Shown piece after piece: positions 7,045 through 19,003 of a DNA stretch of 64,000 bases. A program made the position numbers and the translations under genes. This DNA is from Candidatus Poseidonia sp. (lineage in GTDB: Archaea > Thermoplasmatota > Poseidoniia > Poseidoniales > Poseidoniaceae), in the NCBI GenBank assembly GCA_016778305.1, contig JADHPT010000009.1, forward strand, positions 1 to 64,000, written 5' to 3'. The notes beneath the pieces were generated by a model. The model saw only the letters and a list, made by a program, of their open reading frames with translations. It searched no databases and was not told where the DNA came from. Every line of letters starts with the position of its first letter. Position 1 is the first letter of the stretch.

Positions 7045-7434
7045 TCAGGCCGAACAATTGCGGCAGATACCGTGAAGCGTCAACGTGACGTGGTCCACAG
7101 ATGATATTTTATCTGAGGTTGTCAAGTCGATACTTTCTGGTAGGGGGATGTCCCAGAGCGTGCCACAGACCGTACATGATACGTGGGCGTGTTCGGCTAC
7201 ATTGCAATCGTAACGGACTTCTCCTCGGTGATTCACCGCTTGGATATGCCCTTCATTTGCAAGATGTGTCAAATTCCTGTATACCGTTGCCAATCCAATA
7301 CCGTGGTGAAGAAGTTCCTTGTGAAGTTCCTGGGCGGTTGGGTGATCGTGACGGTTGATGACGGCGTCATGAATGGTTCTCTTTTGCCACGTCATTCGAC
7401 GATCAGGTTGATCCGTCGCTGACGGTTTGCTCAT
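7045..7434 (-). CDS. Fur-family metalloregulator, probably PerR-like
   Basis: This 129-residue protein has the Fur layout: an N-terminal winged helix (HPTAQELHKELL and GLATVYRNLTHLANEG) and a C-terminal dimerisation/metal domain. The domain contains HVSCTVCG and CRNC, the two CxxC pairs that hold structural zinc in Fur and PerR. It lies 18 bp downstream of katG on the same strand and is probably co-transcribed with it. A Fur-type palindrome sits in front of katG. That pairing favours a peroxide-responsive PerR role over iron uptake control, though the two cannot be told apart from sequence alone. Confidence 0.9.
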   Translation of the reverse strand: MSKPSATDQPDRRMTWQKRTIHDAVINRHDHPTAQELHKELLHHGIGLATVYRNLTHLANEGHIQAVNHRGEVRYDCNVAEHAHVSCTVCGTLWDIPLPESIDLTTSDKISSVDHVTLTLHGICRNCSA

Positions 7435-7452
7435 ACAAATGCCTCAGTTGAC

Positions 7453-9687
<2,235 letters not shown>

Positions 9688-11003: not shown

Positions 11004-13013
11004 TCAGTTCTCTTCTTCCGAGGTATAGGTGGGTGGATAGAGATAGCGCGGGTCGCGATCCTCATCCATTTGGACGACATAGACTCCCGAAACCATCTCT
11101 GAGATGAATAGATAGCCGCGAGGGTCGTATTGCAATCCCCAATCGAATGGAATCATACAAGATGCCCAGCAGTCAGCCATATCGTAACCGAGCGTTTCCT
11201 TGGGGTCTTCAATCCACGTTGGGCCTGCTGGAAGATAGTAGCCCATCGTGACGGTTTCAGCGAATTCTTGAATTGCGGGGAATCCAATTTCAGGAGCTGG
11301 GACGCCGTTGATCCACGTTGTTTCAGACCAGATGTTGCTGTGATCTGTCACCCAATTTCCTGCGTGGTAATGCGTCCAGTACACGTGTCCGTTGGTTCCT
11401 GTATCTCCGTTGTGCGGACTGTAAATGTAACCGCCCGGAATGTAGTGGTGATCGTGCACACTACCGTCGGGGAGAATGCTGGTTCCCGGTAATTTCCATT
11501 TGCTCAGGAGGAAGGGTTTCGCTGGATCGGTCGTGTCAATGGTCCAGATGTATCCAGTGTGATTGGTATTGGTGCCGTATTCAGGAGCAATCATGGTTAA
11601 GTGGCGCCAATTAATCCCGAAAACTGGGTCTTCAGGGCCCGTGCCGCATTCTTCATCCCATGTGTCTACGGGGTCAATTTCAGCAGCTCCGTTGCACAAA
11701 AGGTGGTCATAAGGAACTGCGTAGTGTATCCACCCGTTCCCGTTCAAGGCGCCTGTACTTCCGCCCCATTCTTCCGGGGTCATGTTTGCGTGGCCTCCAC
11801 CATCAGGCCCGTACCAGCCGTCGTCCTCACTCGGGCAACCGAGCCAGCGACCGACTTCATTGTCCTGTGGCCATGTGACCCCTTCAGGATCGGGAACTTC
11901 GGGCGGGTTTGTAACATCTACAATCCGTAGCCCTGCATCCCAATAAGAAATGTAGAGAAGTTTCTGGCCGGTTATTGGATGAATATGAAATACGTTATCG
12001 TGATTGAAGATTGAACCACCACAGGTCGTTTCAGGTTCGGGAGAGTATCCGCCCCAACGAAGGATCTGCCGGCTGTCGTTTTGTTGTTCATCGGTTGATG
12101 TTGGGTTCCAGGATTCAAATCCAAGCGGCACATAGAAGATTTGGGTTCCTTTGTAGAATGTTCCAGAATCTCCTTCAACCATTTCTGGATAAGGATCTGC
12201 TCCATAGAGGAAAAGATGGCATTCTTCGATGGCCCAAAGTGGGTTAGCAGGCTCCCAGTCACAGTCCACGTGCATGTCTTGGTTGTGGAACCCCGCTGGA
12301 GGGTTGTTCCATTCGGCTACCTTGATTGGTTCATTCTTATTGACAACAGAAATAACGTCGAGACGGTTTGCTCCACTGTTCGCATCGTCATCTTGAGGAA
12401 TTGGGTCCAAATCGCTGTTGGTAAGTTCGTGGTTGACAAGGACCCAGTTGTTATCTGGTGTTACTTTGATGTCAATCATTCGGCCGACCTCTGCGTAATA
12501 AGTGGAGAGGAGCGTGATGTTATTAGGTTCAGAGATGTCCAAGATTTCAAATTGGTTGTACGAAGAAACATATGCATAGCAACCGCCAGTACCATCGGGA
12601 TTTTTGACACAATCTTCCATGAAATTACCCTCAATCGAAATTTCAGAGGAGTCCCCCGGAGTGGGCCCGACATTCTTGTACTCTGGGAAGCATGGTCGCC
12701 CTGCAACGTTATCAAGTTCTGCGGGTGGAGCCACATTTCCATCGCAATTGAGATTGTGATAGTCAATGAGCTTCATGTTGGACGTTTGGAGTCTGTGAGC
12801 AAGAAGGTCACTGTGACTGTGGTTCTCGTCCTCAATTTCAACCACTGGATCAATCCATTCGCTTGAATCATTACTGTCATTGGCACTTCCTCCATCGTCC
12901 AGACTCATGTATGCGAGTGCAGAAAGTACGCTTACTGTTAGTAAAGTTGACAGCGCTATAACAATAATTTTGTCGGCTGCACTTTCATCCTCTCTAAGAC
13001 GGGGTGTTTGCAT
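11004..13013 (-). CDS. membrane-anchored LVIVD-type beta-propeller protein, copy 1
   Basis: This 669-residue extracellular protein has a signal anchor at residues 16-38. A His/Asp-rich stretch (ENHSHSD) comes next, followed by repeated blades of the LVIVD type, such as SYNQFEILDIS and SYWDAGLRIVDV. His-rich motifs recur: HNQDMHVDCDW, HDNVFHIHP, HDHH near residue 520, SPHN near 532 and HYHAG near 549. These look like metal ligands. It is paralogous to the protein encoded at 14522-16300, sharing SPHN-D, HYHAG-WV and SYW-AGLRI-DV. It is divergent from a small anchored secreted protein, as is its paralogue. The ATG is 24 bp from a TATA element. The copper-enzyme idea rests on the SCO1 neighbour and is inference. 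Confidence 0.8.
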   Translation of the reverse strand: MQTPRLREDESAADKIIVIALSTLLTVSVLSALAYMSLDDGGSANDSNDSSEWIDPVVEIEDENHSHSDLLAHRLQTSNMKLIDYHNLNCDGNVAPPAELDNVAGRPCFPEYKNVGPTPGDSSEISIEGNFMEDCVKNPDGTGGCYAYVSSYNQFEILDISEPNNITLLSTYYAEVGRMIDIKVTPDNNWVLVNHELTNSDLDPIPQDDDANSGANRLDVISVVNKNEPIKVAEWNNPPAGFHNQDMHVDCDWEPANPLWAIEECHLFLYGADPYPEMVEGDSGTFYKGTQIFYVPLGFESWNPTSTDEQQNDSRQILRWGGYSPEPETTCGGSIFNHDNVFHIHPITGQKLLYISYWDAGLRIVDVTNPPEVPDPEGVTWPQDNEVGRWLGCPSEDDGWYGPDGGGHANMTPEEWGGSTGALNGNGWIHYAVPYDHLLCNGAAEIDPVDTWDEECGTGPEDPVFGINWRHLTMIAPEYGTNTNHTGYIWTIDTTDPAKPFLLSKWKLPGTSILPDGSVHDHHYIPGGYIYSPHNGDTGTNGHVYWTHYHAGNWVTDHSNIWSETTWINGVPAPEIGFPAIQEFAETVTMGYYLPAGPTWIEDPKETLGYDMADCWASCMIPFDWGLQYDPRGYLFISEMVSGVYVVQMDEDRDPRYLYPPTYTSEEEN

Positions 13014-13032
13014 AGTCTAAGCGGAGTCTGAG

Positions 13033-13040
13033 TTATATTT
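13033..13040 (-). promoter_or_regulatory. TATA box of propeller gene copy 1
   Basis: On the minus strand AAATATAA is centred about 24 bp before the ATG at 13013, which fits leaderless transcription. The same 91-bp interval must also carry the promoter of the divergent gene starting at 13105. A weaker TTTTATGTA near 13078-13086 is suitably placed for that gene. Confidence 0.5.
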
Positions 13041-13104
13041 CAAATAAGAGTATGATTGGTTCCTTTCACGAATTTCTTTTATGTAGGCAGCTAAAGTGGC
13101 CGTT

Positions 13105-13773
13105 ATGATGAAGCGGATGGCCCCATTGATCGGTTTGCTATTTCTCTCTTCGGTTTTGATCGTAGGAAATGTTCAGGGCCACTCTGCAGACACCTTTACC
13201 GTCGTCATCAAACAAAGCGGTTTGACGCCGGGCTCATCTCAAATTGCCTACAACGATTCTGTGGTGTGGCACAATACTGATTCGAGAGAAAACATCACGC
13301 ATCGAATCGTCTTTGATTTTGACGGAGATGGCTTGTTTAACGGTTCTGACGATTGGGATTCCGGTGAATTGGTATCGGATTGCGATTCAACATCGGACAA
13401 CTCCACTGAAAATAACAGCGAAGCAGAATGTAACGTTACCTTCTTTGTGTGGTTTAACGGCACGTGGGGTATTGGAGAATATGCGTATCAAGACATGGTA
13501 TCCGACGGCTCTGTCATGAATGGGACAATACTTGTGGTTGAGGATGTTCACGTAGAGAATTCGACTTCTCCTCCAATAGGGAGCTCCTTTGGCGTTGTTG
13601 AGACAAATGATGATGAAGTCGTTGAGACAGATGATGATACTTCTGATGATGTTCGTCGAATGTTACTTCTTGTGGGTGCTGGCTCTGGATTGGGTGCGGG
13701 AGGATTGCTGGTTCTCCTGTTAGTGCGCCGTTCAGGAGACGGTATTGCAGAAATAAATGATGAAGAAGCGTGA
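13105..13773 (+). CDS. secreted, membrane-anchored beta-sandwich-like protein, copy 1
   Basis: This is a protein of about 222 residues. It has a signal peptide (LIGLLFLSSVLIVGNVQG, then HSADTF), an extracellular domain of about 125 residues, an acidic linker (DDEVVETDDDTSDD), a transmembrane helix (LLLVGAGSGLGAGGLLVLLLV) and a short charged tail. The domain carries a calcium-loop-like DFDGDGLFNGSDD and two cysteines that may form a disulfide. Its SVVWHNTDSRENITHRIV stretch recalls cupredoxins, but a full His-Cys-His-Met copper site is not clear. It is paralogous to the protein at 16335. Starts at 13105 or 13108 are both possible; the earlier in-frame GTG at 13096 looks less likely. Confidence 0.75.
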   Translation: MMKRMAPLIGLLFLSSVLIVGNVQGHSADTFTVVIKQSGLTPGSSQIAYNDSVVWHNTDSRENITHRIVFDFDGDGLFNGSDDWDSGELVSDCDSTSDNSTENNSEAECNVTFFVWFNGTWGIGEYAYQDMVSDGSVMNGTILVVEDVHVENSTSPPIGSSFGVVETNDDEVVETDDDTSDDVRRMLLLVGAGSGLGAGGLLVLLLVRRSGDGIAEINDEEA

Positions 13774-13867
13774 TTGAATTGACGATCCTCGTCTACGTCC
13801 TAGGAGAATGAAAAACCGAGATTATCGGTTTGATTACCTGGATGGGGTCTCAAAAAAAGGAGAACGT

Positions 13868-14512
13868 TCAGAGGGTGTTGAGATAGCGTAAGTCTTCCAA
13901 GAAAAGGTCGAGAATCCAGTCGTTATCGCCCCACCACACACGTTGATAACCAAATCGGTCAACGAGAATTGTTCCAGTTTCATGGTTTACTGTGTAATCG
14001 TCTGGATGGTGGCGGGCACTGGAGTTATTGGCGGCTTCTTCAATCGTTAGTCCAACCCCGAAGTTGACCCAAACGTTTTGCAAAGCGTTCATGGAAGGGC
14101 TGTCACTATCGTTACTGGTCGAGGTGAGGTGTGCCCACTCCGATTTCGTGCCAGTCTTCCAGTCGTGGAGAGTTGAAACGTTATCGCGCCAGGGGTCAAC
14201 GGTGATGGTCAGGAAGGTGGTCTTGTTCAATTCATCATCCGATAATTGTGATTTGACCCACTTCATGTTGTGAGTAACAATCGGGCAGATATCAATGCAG
14301 TTGGTGAATAAGAAGGCGATGGCGAGGGTGGTGTTGGCTGCTTCTTCTGAGTAAGTCCAAGAAGTCCCTTCGCTGGTGGTGAGAGTGAAATCCTGCACTT
14401 TAACGCTGTCAATTGACTCACCTTTTGGCGTCCAACGGTCAATTTCAGCAGGAGAAAAGCATCCTGCGAGGAAGAGAGTACAAATGAGAATTGAGAACAG
14501 TCGCGATTGCAT
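13868..14512 (-). CDS. SCO1/SenC-type copper chaperone lipoprotein
   Basis: This 214-residue lipoprotein has the lipobox LAGC at residues 15-18 and a thioredoxin-fold SCO domain. The copper ligands are visible: CIDICP (CxxxCP) and a distal His in VNHETGT. SCO proteins deliver copper to, or act as thiol reductase for, the CuA site of haem-copper oxidases, and also serve other copper enzymes. The start follows a GAGGTGA ribosome-binding site lying at the end of the upstream propeller gene, 9 bp away, so the two are one operon. No cytochrome oxidase gene is in the window, which makes the propeller protein a candidate client. Confidence 0.9.
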   Translation of the reverse strand: MQSRLFSILICTLFLAGCFSPAEIDRWTPKGESIDSVKVQDFTLTTSEGTSWTYSEEAANTTLAIAFLFTNCIDICPIVTHNMKWVKSQLSDDELNKTTFLTITVDPWRDNVSTLHDWKTGTKSEWAHLTSTSNDSDSPSMNALQNVWVNFGVGLTIEEAANNSSARHHPDDYTVNHETGTILVDRFGYQRVWWGDNDWILDLFLEDLRYLNTL

Positions 14513-14521
14513 GGTTTCACC

Positions 14522-16300
14522 TCAAAGTCGATACGGTTCATCGATATCGAGTTGGACAAGATACAGGCCGGTGGAGATGCACGAGGCGTACGTGATGCCT
14601 TCATGGTGTTCAACCGCCCATAGGAAGGGCACCCACCCGAAATCATAGAAGCTTGAATCAAGGGGGGTTCCGTCTTCGCCATGAGGAAGGTAATAGGCAA
14701 CTGTGGCCTCTTCATTGGTTGCGATTCGATCGTCGGGTTGGGTTGGGGCAACCAGGGTTTCTACATCAATCACCCATAATCCCGCATGGTAATGGGAAAT
14801 ATACAGACGCCCATCCCACGTTCCACCGCGGCTTTGATCGGTCTCTTCGGTAGTTTCGAAGTAAGTGCTGTCGAGGTTGTGTGGGGAGAAAAGGAGCCAT
14901 TCATCGCCGTTGGGGTGTGCCTCGCAATCTGCCCCATAGCAGTGTTCTTCTGCATAGGGAATTTCCCAGTCCCTGATGAGTTTCGGTTTGAATTTGAATT
15001 GGCCGTCTTCAAGGGTATATTCTGTTGTGTCAATCAGGTAAATGATACCCGTTCCAACGTTTGTGGAAAGGACTTCGACCGCTGCTGTTACCATGTGGAC
15101 GGGTTCATCTGAATAGCCAACGTGAGATAAATCAAGCATCTCGGGGAAGGGTTCTGCATAGTGGATGTAAGAGACACGTCCACCGTTTTCGTTTCCAGTA
15201 GTACCGCTATCGGGTTGCCCATCGCCATCCATATCGAGGAAGTCCATCCACAATCCAACTTCTGGTGCACGCCATCGGCACATGAGTGGATTGCCTTGTC
15301 CTGCCTTACAGGTCGTTGCATGAAGGGTGTAGGCTTCAGGTGAGTTCACGGGGTGGGGGACGTCTGAAACATCGGCAATACGCAAGCCTGCTTCCCAATA
15401 ACTACCGTAAATGAACGTCCTTCCAAACCTTGGGTCGTTGGGATCTTCTCCCGGCCAGGTTTGGACGGTCATATCGTGGATGTAAATCCAGCCACCACGG
15501 GTGGTATCCCACGCAACTTCGTATTCTCCAACCTTGATCATCGTGTGCCCCGCTCCGCTGAGAGGAACCCCGGGGAGGTTACGGGCAGCTGAGCCATCGA
15601 GGTTGAGATGAACGATGGTGACTCCACCACAGGCTTCGCCGATGGCGTCGTTGCATTCATTGTAATCGGGATTGGCGATGAAAACATACCATTCGCCGTC
15701 AATCATGTGCGTGTAGAGGTTGTGGGGGCCGCTTGGGTGGTCGCTATCGTACCACGAATCGATGAGGGTTGGATTTGTCTTATCGGTCACGTCGATGAGA
15801 AGCGCGGATACTTGAGTTGGATCGCTCCATTCACCGACGTTGGGGTCCGAGTTTCCCGGATCGATGAGTTGGTTCTGCTGAAGGATGTACTCTCGTCCGT
15901 TGTACTCAAGATATTTGACATCGAGAACTTGGGTGTTCGGATCGTTGAATACGCCTACAACTTCAGTGTTTTCGGGGTCGGTAACGTCGACAATGTGCAT
16001 GTCGTTCCAACCTGCCAAATATGCATAGGTCCGTCCGTCAGGGGTCGTGGCCACTTGGACTTCGGCATTTCCTGGTGTACTCAGGGGATTGAAATCGAGG
16101 AGTTCCATGTTATCGGTGCCAGCAATGTGCTGGCTGGCGTTTTTGTGATCGTGCCCTTCCCCTTGGAAGAGCGGGTCGCCGCTGGAAATGAGGGTTTCAT
16201 TGACTTGAACAGTGTTGGTGTCCTCGCCAAGAAGCAACAACGCTGCCGAGGAGGCGAACAGGAGGACAAAGAGCCCCAGCGCAATTTCCTTCCCACCCAT
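14522..16300 (-). CDS. membrane-anchored LVIVD-type beta-propeller protein, copy 2
   Basis: With the ATG at 16300 this is 592 residues. A signal anchor (ALGLFVLLFASSAALLLL) is followed by a His-rich stretch (GEGHDHKNASQH). LVIVD blades come next, such as AYLAGWNDMHIVDVTDPE, SYWEAGLRIADV and SHYHAGLWVIDV, with the SPHN motif near residue 472 and HYHAG near 503. The latter two motifs and the fold are shared with the copy at 11004-13013. In-frame ATGs at 16360 and 16396 would add a basic N terminus but overlap the divergent gene. It forms an operon with the SCO1-type gene just downstream. The function is not established; a metal-dependent periplasmic or surface propeller is the best reading. Confidence 0.8.
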   Translation of the reverse strand: MGGKEIALGLFVLLFASSAALLLLGEDTNTVQVNETLISSGDPLFQGEGHDHKNASQHIAGTDNMELLDFNPLSTPGNAEVQVATTPDGRTYAYLAGWNDMHIVDVTDPENTEVVGVFNDPNTQVLDVKYLEYNGREYILQQNQLIDPGNSDPNVGEWSDPTQVSALLIDVTDKTNPTLIDSWYDSDHPSGPHNLYTHMIDGEWYVFIANPDYNECNDAIGEACGGVTIVHLNLDGSAARNLPGVPLSGAGHTMIKVGEYEVAWDTTRGGWIYIHDMTVQTWPGEDPNDPRFGRTFIYGSYWEAGLRIADVSDVPHPVNSPEAYTLHATTCKAGQGNPLMCRWRAPEVGLWMDFLDMDGDGQPDSGTTGNENGGRVSYIHYAEPFPEMLDLSHVGYSDEPVHMVTAAVEVLSTNVGTGIIYLIDTTEYTLEDGQFKFKPKLIRDWEIPYAEEHCYGADCEAHPNGDEWLLFSPHNLDSTYFETTEETDQSRGGTWDGRLYISHYHAGLWVIDVETLVAPTQPDDRIATNEEATVAYYLPHGEDGTPLDSSFYDFGWVPFLWAVEHHEGITYASCISTGLYLVQLDIDEPYRL

Positions 16301-16334
16301 ATTCTTCCTGAATACTTTCCTCCGTTTGGTCTTT

Positions 16335-17036
16335 ATGGCTCCTCGCTCACCGCGATACATGGGCAGGTCCGTGGTTGCATTGGGCCTCTGTACCATGATG
16401 TTGTGCCTTGTTGCGCTGCCTTCTATGCAGGCCCACGAACAGAAAACCCTCTCGGTTATCCTTCTTGATGACGGTGCAGTATACGGGAATATCAGCGACC
16501 CCTCATTCGTTCAGGGCAATGCGATGTGGTTCAAAATGGAAGATGGGACGGAGAACGCCACGATGGTTGCCCGCCTCGATGTGAATCAAGACGGGGTCTT
16601 CAACGCCAGTGTTGACTTTGAGTCGGGCGTCATGATGGAGTCGTGTGAACTTGATGAAAATGGATCCTTGGTTGATGAAGAATGTATTGTCTCAAGCACC
16701 TACGCCTTCCCGTCCAACGCAAGTACGGGAATGTACACCTATTGGATTCTACGTGACCACAATACTACCGTAACTATGTGGAACTATACCATTTACGTGC
16801 ACGAAGACATCCATGAAGAAGACGGTCCTTCACCGGGAGACTGTTTTGGAGCTGGTTGTGAAACCAGTGCGGCTGCAGATGAAGACGTGAACTCGGGTGT
16901 TCCGCCCGATGAAGCCATCCTCCAAATTCTTGTTATTCTTGCCTTCGTTGCAATCATCTTCTTGTCTCTCTCCATACGAAAAGACCGCTTGAGTGGTAAA
17001 AGCCTGGATTCAGTTCACGCCAGTGAAGATGAATGA
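16335..17036 (+). CDS. secreted, membrane-anchored beta-sandwich-like protein, copy 2
   Basis: This 233-residue protein has a signal peptide (VALGLCTMMLCLVALPSMQA, then HEQKTL), an extracellular domain, an acidic Cys-containing linker (CFGAGCETS) and a C-terminal transmembrane helix (ILQILVILAFVAIIFLSLSI). It aligns by eye with the protein at 13105. Shared features are the loop DVNQDGVFNASVDFESG against DFDGDGLFNGSDDWDSG, a Cys pair spaced similarly, and a final Y-W/F strand before the linker. It is divergent from propeller copy 2 by 34 bp, mirroring copy 1. The start is at the Met before the signal peptide; a longer in-frame start would overlap the divergent gene. Confidence 0.75.
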   Translation: MAPRSPRYMGRSVVALGLCTMMLCLVALPSMQAHEQKTLSVILLDDGAVYGNISDPSFVQGNAMWFKMEDGTENATMVARLDVNQDGVFNASVDFESGVMMESCELDENGSLVDEECIVSSTYAFPSNASTGMYTYWILRDHNTTVTMWNYTIYVHEDIHEEDGPSPGDCFGAGCETSAAADEDVNSGVPPDEAILQILVILAFVAIIFLSLSIRKDRLSGKSLDSVHASEDE

Positions 17037-17230: not shown

Positions 17231-19003
17231 ATGCTCATGATGCGACAACGCTACGGGCAGGCCTGCTTGCTCGTCACCCTGATGTTACTCGCTCCTTTAT
17301 CCGGTTGCTTTGGTGAAGATGATGCTTCCGGGCCACGTTCTACCAGCGACGTAACCGTCTCTCCAGAAGTGATGGTTGGTGGCGTCTTTCAAGGATTGAC
17401 GATCGCTGCTGAAACTGATTTGACAGCCTTTGTCCCCTACCTCATCAAAAACCAAGAAACTGGATTTGTTCAAAATTCAACCGTTGTAGATTTGAGAGCA
17501 GGTGAATCAATTCTCCTGTCCGTTCTCGCACCGCCACGTACCGATACGGGCGTCGTGCTTATCGGAGATTACGGGAGAGAACATTGGCCAATTCGCGCCA
17601 TTGATGAATCGTGGCGGACATGGTATGAACGGGATGGCCATGAGCGAAATGACAATCCTGGAATCATGAGAGTGGCTCCTATCAACGGCACTCTTGACAC
17701 GGTTCAGCCTTCAAATGAAAGTGGCGGGCCTGCATTGACGCTTCGAATCTCTATTGAGCGGGACGTTGCCCCTGCCTATGGAGAAGAGGCTGGTGGGCGG
17801 CATTCAACGGGCGTGGTCAACGGACGAACGACATTCAATTATCTCTCAATGCTCTCGGATGAATCCCCGGATCCTTCTGACGGTGCTGACGGTGCTATTG
17901 GTTACCTTGACCGTTGGGCTGGCCAAGGCAATGTCGCATACGAAGACGCCGCACAATACTTGATTCAGGCCCTGGAAAGTTTCGGCCTGGAGGTCATCAC
18001 GCAGCGGTTCACCTATGACTCATTGACGACGGGAGCTCAAAATCCCGAGGCATACAACATCTGTGGGTATCGATTTGGTGACGTAGATCCGGATAAATGG
18101 ATGGTCTTTGGTGCTCATTTCGATATTGCTCCGCCTGCGAATGGTGGAATGCTGGACCCGCACATTTTCGGCCGGACATATGGAACTCGAGTAGGGGCAT
18201 ATGACAACACTGCAGGAACAAGTATGGTGCTCACTGTTGCCGAAGCAATGGCGAATTATAACACGCGTAACACCATGGTTTTCTGTTTGTGGTCCGGTGA
18301 AGAAGGTGGAAAGCGTGGAAGTGACTTCTGGACTGATTACTGGGTGAAAGAAGACAATCCAAATGTCGAGGTTACCAATTATGTGAATCTGGACATGGCC
18401 GGCGTTAACTGGCCAGGTGGCGGTGGCGCCCCATGTGGAGGCGAACACGGTGGAGGCGACGCTGGTTGTGACCCGCAGCCTGAAATCGATCCCGACGGCT
18501 ATCCTAAGGACGAGGAAGTGTGGCCAATGCGAGTCTACATCGGCCCAAGCCTGGACCATGATGTCATGAACCAGCCCGGTATGGTTGGCCTTGCTATGTG
18601 GATTGGATCAGACGCGATTGGTGTTGAAGAACAAATGTCGCCACTCATCGGAGCGGGGTACGATGCTGAAACCTGGAAAGTTGACGATTGGATGGCAAAG
18701 GACCGTCCTGAGATCATCGTCTATGAAGACACTACTGCTCGCTCTGATCACGCTACGTTCCAGGACAATCTCGGTACTGTGACCATGGGCTTTGGAGGCC
18801 TTGTCGACGGGTATTGGTGTTACCACCAGACCTGTGATACGATAGATGAGATGATCGATTGGATGGATACAACTGGCAAAGATTACGGGGAAGAGCAATC
18901 CGGAACCAGTAACCTTGTTGACGCCCTTGATACCATCACCTGGTGGGCAACCTATTCCTTCTTCCACCTTGATGAAACGCCCGTTCGAAATGCATACCTC
19001 TGA
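17231..19003 (+). CDS. secreted M28-family zinc aminopeptidase lipoprotein
   Basis: This 590-residue lipoprotein has a hydrophobic signal and lipobox (LLAPLSGC). After an N-terminal accessory region of about 200 residues comes the M28 peptidase domain. Metal ligands can be followed in order: GAHFD, AYDNTAG, the SGEEGG catalytic and metal Glu pair, NLDMAG and RSDHATF. The domain is interrupted by a Gly-rich, Cys-containing loop (GGGGAPCGGEHGGG). It probably releases amino acids from peptides at the cell surface, fitting a protein-degrading lifestyle. An AAGGTGA ribosome-binding site lies 10 bases before the ATG. Its stop abuts that of the convergent M50 gene. The 194 bp before it hold no convincing gene. 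Confidence 0.92.
   Translation: MLMMRQRYGQACLLVTLMLLAPLSGCFGEDDASGPRSTSDVTVSPEVMVGGVFQGLTIAAETDLTAFVPYLIKNQETGFVQNSTVVDLRAGESILLSVLAPPRTDTGVVLIGDYGREHWPIRAIDESWRTWYERDGHERNDNPGIMRVAPINGTLDTVQPSNESGGPALTLRISIERDVAPAYGEEAGGRHSTGVVNGRTTFNYLSMLSDESPDPSDGADGAIGYLDRWAGQGNVAYEDAAQYLIQALESFGLEVITQRFTYDSLTTGAQNPEAYNICGYRFGDVDPDKWMVFGAHFDIAPPANGGMLDPHIFGRTYGTRVGAYDNTAGTSMVLTVAEAMANYNTRNTMVFCLWSGEEGGKRGSDFWTDYWVKEDNPNVEVTNYVNLDMAGVNWPGGGGAPCGGEHGGGDAGCDPQPEIDPDGYPKDEEVWPMRVYIGPSLDHDVMNQPGMVGLAMWIGSDAIGVEEQMSPLIGAGYDAETWKVDDWMAKDRPEIIVYEDTTARSDHATFQDNLGTVTMGFGGLVDGYWCYHQTCDTIDEMIDWMDTTGKDYGEEQSGTSNLVDALDTITWWATYSFFHLDETPVRNAYL

Follow-up and report, generated by a model that had tools for sequence, protein, structure and literature searches.

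Poseidoniia, archaea that are abundant in the surface ocean, remain uncultured, and most of what is known of their surface biochemistry comes from annotation. In the genome of one of them, a Candidatus Poseidonia (1.9 Mb in 33 contigs), we analysed a stretch of 64,000 nucleotides, here called the window, in which a SCO1-type copper chaperone lies beside two membrane-anchored beta-propellers and two small anchored proteins. What does the chaperone serve there? The answer that we put forward, with our confidence about evenly balanced, is that these genes form, in Poseidoniia, an extracytoplasmic enzyme module linked to copper, in which the propeller is probably loaded with copper by SCO1 and a histidine-brace-like partner. 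If true, this would add a new copper-binding partner family and bring a possible copper enzyme into the metal-propeller superfamily.

Layout and conservation of the locus

The propellers and the small proteins were given the working names Prop and Cup in this analysis. The locus, on contig C13, has the following features:

PropA, 11004..13013, minus strand: membrane-anchored LVIVD-type beta-propeller of 669 aa (ORF, Pfam); falls in its own clade (support 1.0) and has all 8 invariant His
CupA, 13096..13773, plus strand: small anchored protein with a Cys pair, D-x-H and a C-terminal TM helix; mature N-terminus predicted at the His of codon 13180 (signal-peptide pattern AxA/VxG before His, read from the sequence)
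SCO, 13868..14512, minus strand: SCO1/SenC lipoprotein with an LAGC lipobox, CxxxC and a distal His (Pfam, alignment)
PropB, 14522..16300, minus strand: membrane-anchored seven-bladed propeller of 592 aa (ORF, Pfam, AF2, fold match)
SPHN motif of PropB, 14876..14887, minus strand: S472 to N475 in blade 6; S472, P473, H474 and N475 all invariant
HxHx5H motif of PropB, 16127..16153, minus strand: H50, H52 and H58, N-terminal, behind the TM helix; invariant in 36 of 36 relatives
CupB, 16335..17036, plus strand: small anchored protein, start probably at 16359, with C96-C109, D150-x-H152 and a C-terminal TM helix; mature N-terminus predicted at the His of codon 16434

The ORF coordinates and lengths agree with the two divergent propeller/anchored-protein pairs described in the first-pass annotation, including the minus-strand propellers of 669 and 592 residues, the latter counted from the start chosen there. 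A longer in-frame start at 16396 would give PropB 624 residues, and alternative ATGs lie a few codons inside the CupA ORF, one of which may be the real start. The LVIVD type was confirmed by Pfam (1e-8 in PropA, 5e-6 in PropB), as was the SCO1/SenC chaperone 9 bp past the PropB stop, which matches PF02630 at 1.8e-17, keeps C72, C76 and the distal H177 in the alignment and is matched by solved SCO relatives down to 3.6e-14. A promoter and terminator scan gave counts without clear excess over shuffled sequence. An M28-type peptidase gene (window 17231-19003) adjoins CupB and recurs there in most related SCO-bearing loci. At 7045-9666 of the window a FUR-family regulator adjoins a KatG-like catalase-peroxidase, a combination typical of the peroxide response.

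The first-pass annotation had proposed a genome survey for co-occurrence of the three gene types, and across Poseidoniia their linkage proved to be conserved. Among 390 genomes of the phylum, in which the Poseidoniia are mostly metagenome-assembled or single-cell genomes, Prop was found in 111 Poseidoniia genomes and Cup in 109. Both are present in 108 genomes, Prop only in 3 and Cup only in 1, and at least 20 class members have neither. Over the 132 scored class genomes (108 with both, 4 discordant and 20 with neither, the last count being a lower bound) a Fisher test gives 1.6e-19, a value that ignores relatedness, and the joint absences are spread over several genera. Outside Poseidoniia the phylum survey found essentially no Cup, with one marginal match. 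A divergent Cup lies within 2 kb of PropB in 91 of 93 loci; of the other two, one begins 180 bp short of a contig end, and in the second the Cup is about 4 kb distant. SCO adjoins PropB in all three surveyed families and stands within 8 kb of it in 72 of the 93 loci, the remaining 21 including contig ends and also the whole genera g3 and g4. SCO1 genes sitting usually beside oxidase genes, the pattern that was to speak against a link with the propeller, were looked for and not seen, and these counts support SCO1 being linked to the propeller and not to the oxidase. One PropB gene (G015 C1:212498-214270) is broken by a single in-frame TGA, either a sequencing error or a pseudogene.

The description of the locus as a duplicated module turned out to be misleading. 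PropA and PropB are 25% identical (2e-30), CupA and CupB 28% (9e-14), and a tree of 68 propeller sequences rooted on haloarchaeal homologs separates a pure PropA clade (support 1.0) from a pure PropB clade (support 0.82). Since each clade includes members of both Poseidoniales families, the split is, judging from this tree, ancient and not a recent local duplication. In the sister family both lineages lie in a single operon, PropB-PropA-Cup-SCO-SCO2-YHYH, from whose PropB a second Cup diverges. These pieces are arranged as two divergent pairs in the window's family. PropA and CupA can move as a unit, as in two loci (L034, L039) where the pair sits across PropB-CupB on the opposite side. The sister-family PropA has a lipobox-like start. 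Beside one sister-family operon a single ORF carries both peptidase M28 and ZIP zinc-transporter domains (L149:201-2477).

The propellers and their nearest relatives

The AF2 model of PropB (pLDDT 78, pTM 0.84) has a strand list that reads as seven blades. We aligned 36 propellers, comprising PropA and PropB from three families and two Haladaptatus homologs (23% identity, 91% coverage), and found 47 invariant positions. Eight of these are His (H50, H52, H58, H193, H275, H380, H474, H505; H474 is counted ignoring one unknown residue), so that 8 of the 23 His of PropB fall among the invariant positions, an over-representation with P = 1.7e-4. D127 and E409 are likewise conserved, down to the 23%-identical haloarchaeal homologs. 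In the model blades 3 to 6 carry H193, H275, H380 and H474 at or close to their inner strands, D127 holds the corresponding place in blade 2, and E409 belongs to blade 5, positions from which the central His would converge on one site. Prop is very probably a metalloprotein. The HxHx5H motif is also present in the haloarchaeal homologs and absent from bacterial phosphotriesterase relatives; H50, H52, H58 and H505 are archaeal additions, which may make up a second site or a clamp. The His motifs pointed out earlier survived in part: SPHN and HYHAG are conserved, with the first His of HYHAG varying (27 of 36), while HDHH, which is found in copy 1 only and is not retained in the sister-family PropA (L149), was dropped as a key motif. 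On Haladaptatus plasmids (L166:5854-7455, L167:5854-7455) the Prop homolog has the same 8 His, lies behind an S8 peptidase gene and has no annotated SCO neighbour.

With LVIVD and choice-of-anchor B proteins the propellers share a Pfam LVIVD match above the cut-off and, in PropB, a partial match to TIGR04312; they differ in their archaeal-specific His and gene context. The TIGR04312 score of 28 against a cut-off of 100 led us to reject choice-of-anchor B membership of PropB.

The top Foldseek PDB match of PropB is 5hrm (E 1.3e-9, TM 0.50). Both 5hrm and 5ioj are entries for the Sphingobium phosphotriesterase/haloalkylphosphorus hydrolase (Sb-PTE), whose seven-bladed propeller holds a binuclear metal centre. 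Single-sequence searches against solved structures with PropA, PropB, A1, A6 and one haloarchaeal homolog found nothing relevant, and a combined profile, which includes haloarchaeal homologs, was needed. Against 177,635 PDB sequences this profile matched only 5hrm (E 0.006) and 5ioj (E 0.011), the match being concentrated in the C-terminal 70 residues, and HHalign to one hydrolase sequence covered no more than 77 C-terminal columns.

The hydrolase side of the alignment consisted of plasmid relatives of the Sphingobium protein. H193/H258, H275/H317, H380/H389 and E409/E407 (PropB/hydrolase; Sphingobium and Novosphingobium proteins) share the same columns, and D127/E201 and H474/H475 agree in order and stand 3-5 columns apart. 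The hydrolase residues E201, H258, H317, H389, E407 and H475, presumably its central metal ligands, are present with the same numbering in L168, a close relative. Sb-PTE resembles Prop in its fold, in being both the top fold match and the only profile match, and in four shared columns, whereas identity is about 16%, Sb-PTE is without HxHx5H and HYH, and no SCO or Cup partner was seen with it. The kinship is modest on sequence alone and is carried by the fold match and the alignment together.

The haloalkylphosphorus hydrolase is not known for copper. On Paraburkholderia and Tsukamurella plasmids the gene immediately behind a phosphotriesterase-like propeller gene is a DUF305 gene (L171:3970-4635, L174:3882-4628), and other plasmid DUF305 genes were found near CopC genes. 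The DUF305 protein CopM binds copper (PMC4335983), and the position of hydrolase relatives beside DUF305 genes is a second, weaker pointer to copper.

The small Cup proteins

Every Cup starts with a His directly after a signal-peptide-like stretch that ends in AxA or VxG, the pattern by which the cleavage site was placed. In 74 Cup relatives the invariant residues are H1, D37, N41, S64, C71, C84, D125 and H127 (mature CupB numbering), and 44 more diverse Cups, sister families included, keep H1 (44/44), the last His (44/44), the Asp (43/44) and the second Cys (44/44). A histidine brace holds copper in a T-shaped geometry by two His and the N-terminal amine, and at the level of sequence the Cup proteins have the marks of this class, namely a conserved predicted mature N-terminal His, a second His and an Asp. 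This signature, which we regard as the best evidence at the locus, had escaped the first-pass annotation, as had the HxHx5H of the propellers. The Cys pair and the calcium-like loop had both been proposed as features of these proteins; the former is invariant in the 74 relatives, and the loop, missing in the g3/g4 Cup subgroup, was ruled out as a key feature. A cupredoxin reading was likewise rejected, the plastocyanin ligand pattern not being conserved whereas the N-terminal His and D-x-H are.

Pfam found no family above cut-off in CupA or CupB and no CopC match in the 74 members. Mature CupB (residues 26-165) was modelled by AF2 as a beta-sandwich (pLDDT 87.7) in which H1 precedes the first strand and the final strand is followed by D-x-H; with six alternating strands the two ends would be expected to share a side. 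The fold search gave weak matches (TM ≤0.50 in either normalisation), without CopC among the 50 fold matches listed and without a close Foldseek match to a histidine-brace protein.

Cup has D-x-H past the last strand, a position that we believe differs from that in CopC, and is also set apart from it by the C-terminal TM anchor, the Cys pair and the lack of a sequence match. What the two have in common is an N-terminal His after the signal peptide, a D-x-H of the same spacing and a small beta-sandwich. CopC of Pseudomonas fluorescens binds Cu(II) via His1, Asp83 and His85 (PMC7529816), and as Cup has the N-terminal His and D-x-H, it should bind Cu(II) too. Proteins with a mature N-terminal His were found by a published search to bind transition metals (PMC12537917). 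The architecture of YcnI, an N-terminal His, a beta domain and a C-terminal TM helix (PMC8424229), recurs in Cup, as do copper-gene neighbours, but DUF1775 has no Pfam match in Cup, and in YcnI the mono-histidine brace is completed by Glu and Trp in place of D-x-H. From these residues we consider it likely that Cup binds copper.

Proposed function and alternatives

In the mechanism that we propose, PropA and PropB would be seven-bladed propellers held at the membrane by an N-terminal TM helix, each with a central metal site of the haloalkylphosphorus hydrolase type (D127, H193, H275, H380, E409 and H474 in PropB numbering). Cup would be a C-terminally anchored beta-sandwich whose mature N-terminal His and D-x-H bind Cu(II) as in CopC, and the SCO lipoprotein, joined by SCO2 in the sister family, would together with Cup supply copper to the propeller. 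So loaded, the propeller may act on a substrate at the cell surface. That copper is the working metal of the propeller seems to us an evenly poised proposition. Tentatively, the module could amount to a new class of surface cuproenzyme, widespread in marine Poseidoniia, in which a propeller of the phosphotriesterase superfamily with an N-terminal His clamp receives copper via a new histidine-brace family and a dedicated SCO. The conserved Prop and Cup residues are concrete targets for testing.

The nearest solved relative being a hydrolase, with four ligand-like residues in common columns, the propellers may instead be surface metallohydrolases of the Zn, Mn or Ca kind with phospho- or carboxyl-esters as substrates, and with Cup and SCO mere neighbours that have another copper task. 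We think this improbable, given that Prop and Cup occur together with only four exceptions and keep their divergent arrangement in nearly all loci, and that the hydrolase family lacks the additional invariant His. An equally doubtful reading takes the whole locus as a non-catalytic system for copper acquisition, buffering or detoxification, in which Cup captures Cu(II), SCO reduces it or hands it over, and the propeller serves as scaffold or storage. The YcnI-like architecture and CopC ligand set of Cup suit such a role, as do the DUF305 genes adjoining the bacterial propeller relatives; no copper ATPase or CopD-like importer, however, appears among the general annotations of the neighbourhoods, and the propeller retains an enzyme-like His/Glu/Asp centre.

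The copper-loaded surface enzyme was reached in the first-pass annotation through an analogy with SBP56, the propeller-type methanethiol oxidase MtoX. The conserved, surface-anchored and copper-linked module with ligand-like His stands, and the SBP56 kinship does not. SCO1 accompanies mtoX in bacteria (PMC5739008) and is present at the propeller loci, and both are His-bearing propeller-type proteins; nevertheless PF05694 was matched neither in the 194 phylum genomes searched nor in the Pfam scans of the propellers, SBP56 is absent among the 50 fold matches listed for PropB, and no MauG was seen among the identified neighbours of the propeller loci. Homology to SBP56 was therefore rejected, and a copper methanethiol oxidase of this type is highly improbable. 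Little weight can also be given to the idea that SCO1 acts in trans for cytochrome c oxidase and stands beside the propeller by accident. The genome does encode a heme-copper oxidase, with COX1, COX2 and COX3-like genes on contig C25, away from the locus as had been remarked, and the 12 kb read around these genes revealed no SCO; yet SCO keeps its place at PropB in every surveyed family, and a second SCO, behind a YHYH gene on contig C33, could serve the oxidase.

Literature searches for a link of YHYH or LVIVD with copper or metal were unproductive. The gene preceding the second SCO on contig C33 encodes a YHYH/FSH1-hydrolase protein (L175:2-3418), and in the sister-family operon a YHYH-domain protein (PF14240) lies behind SCO2 (L149:9679-11874, L155:15842-17863). 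YHYH appears to be associated with the same copper genes.
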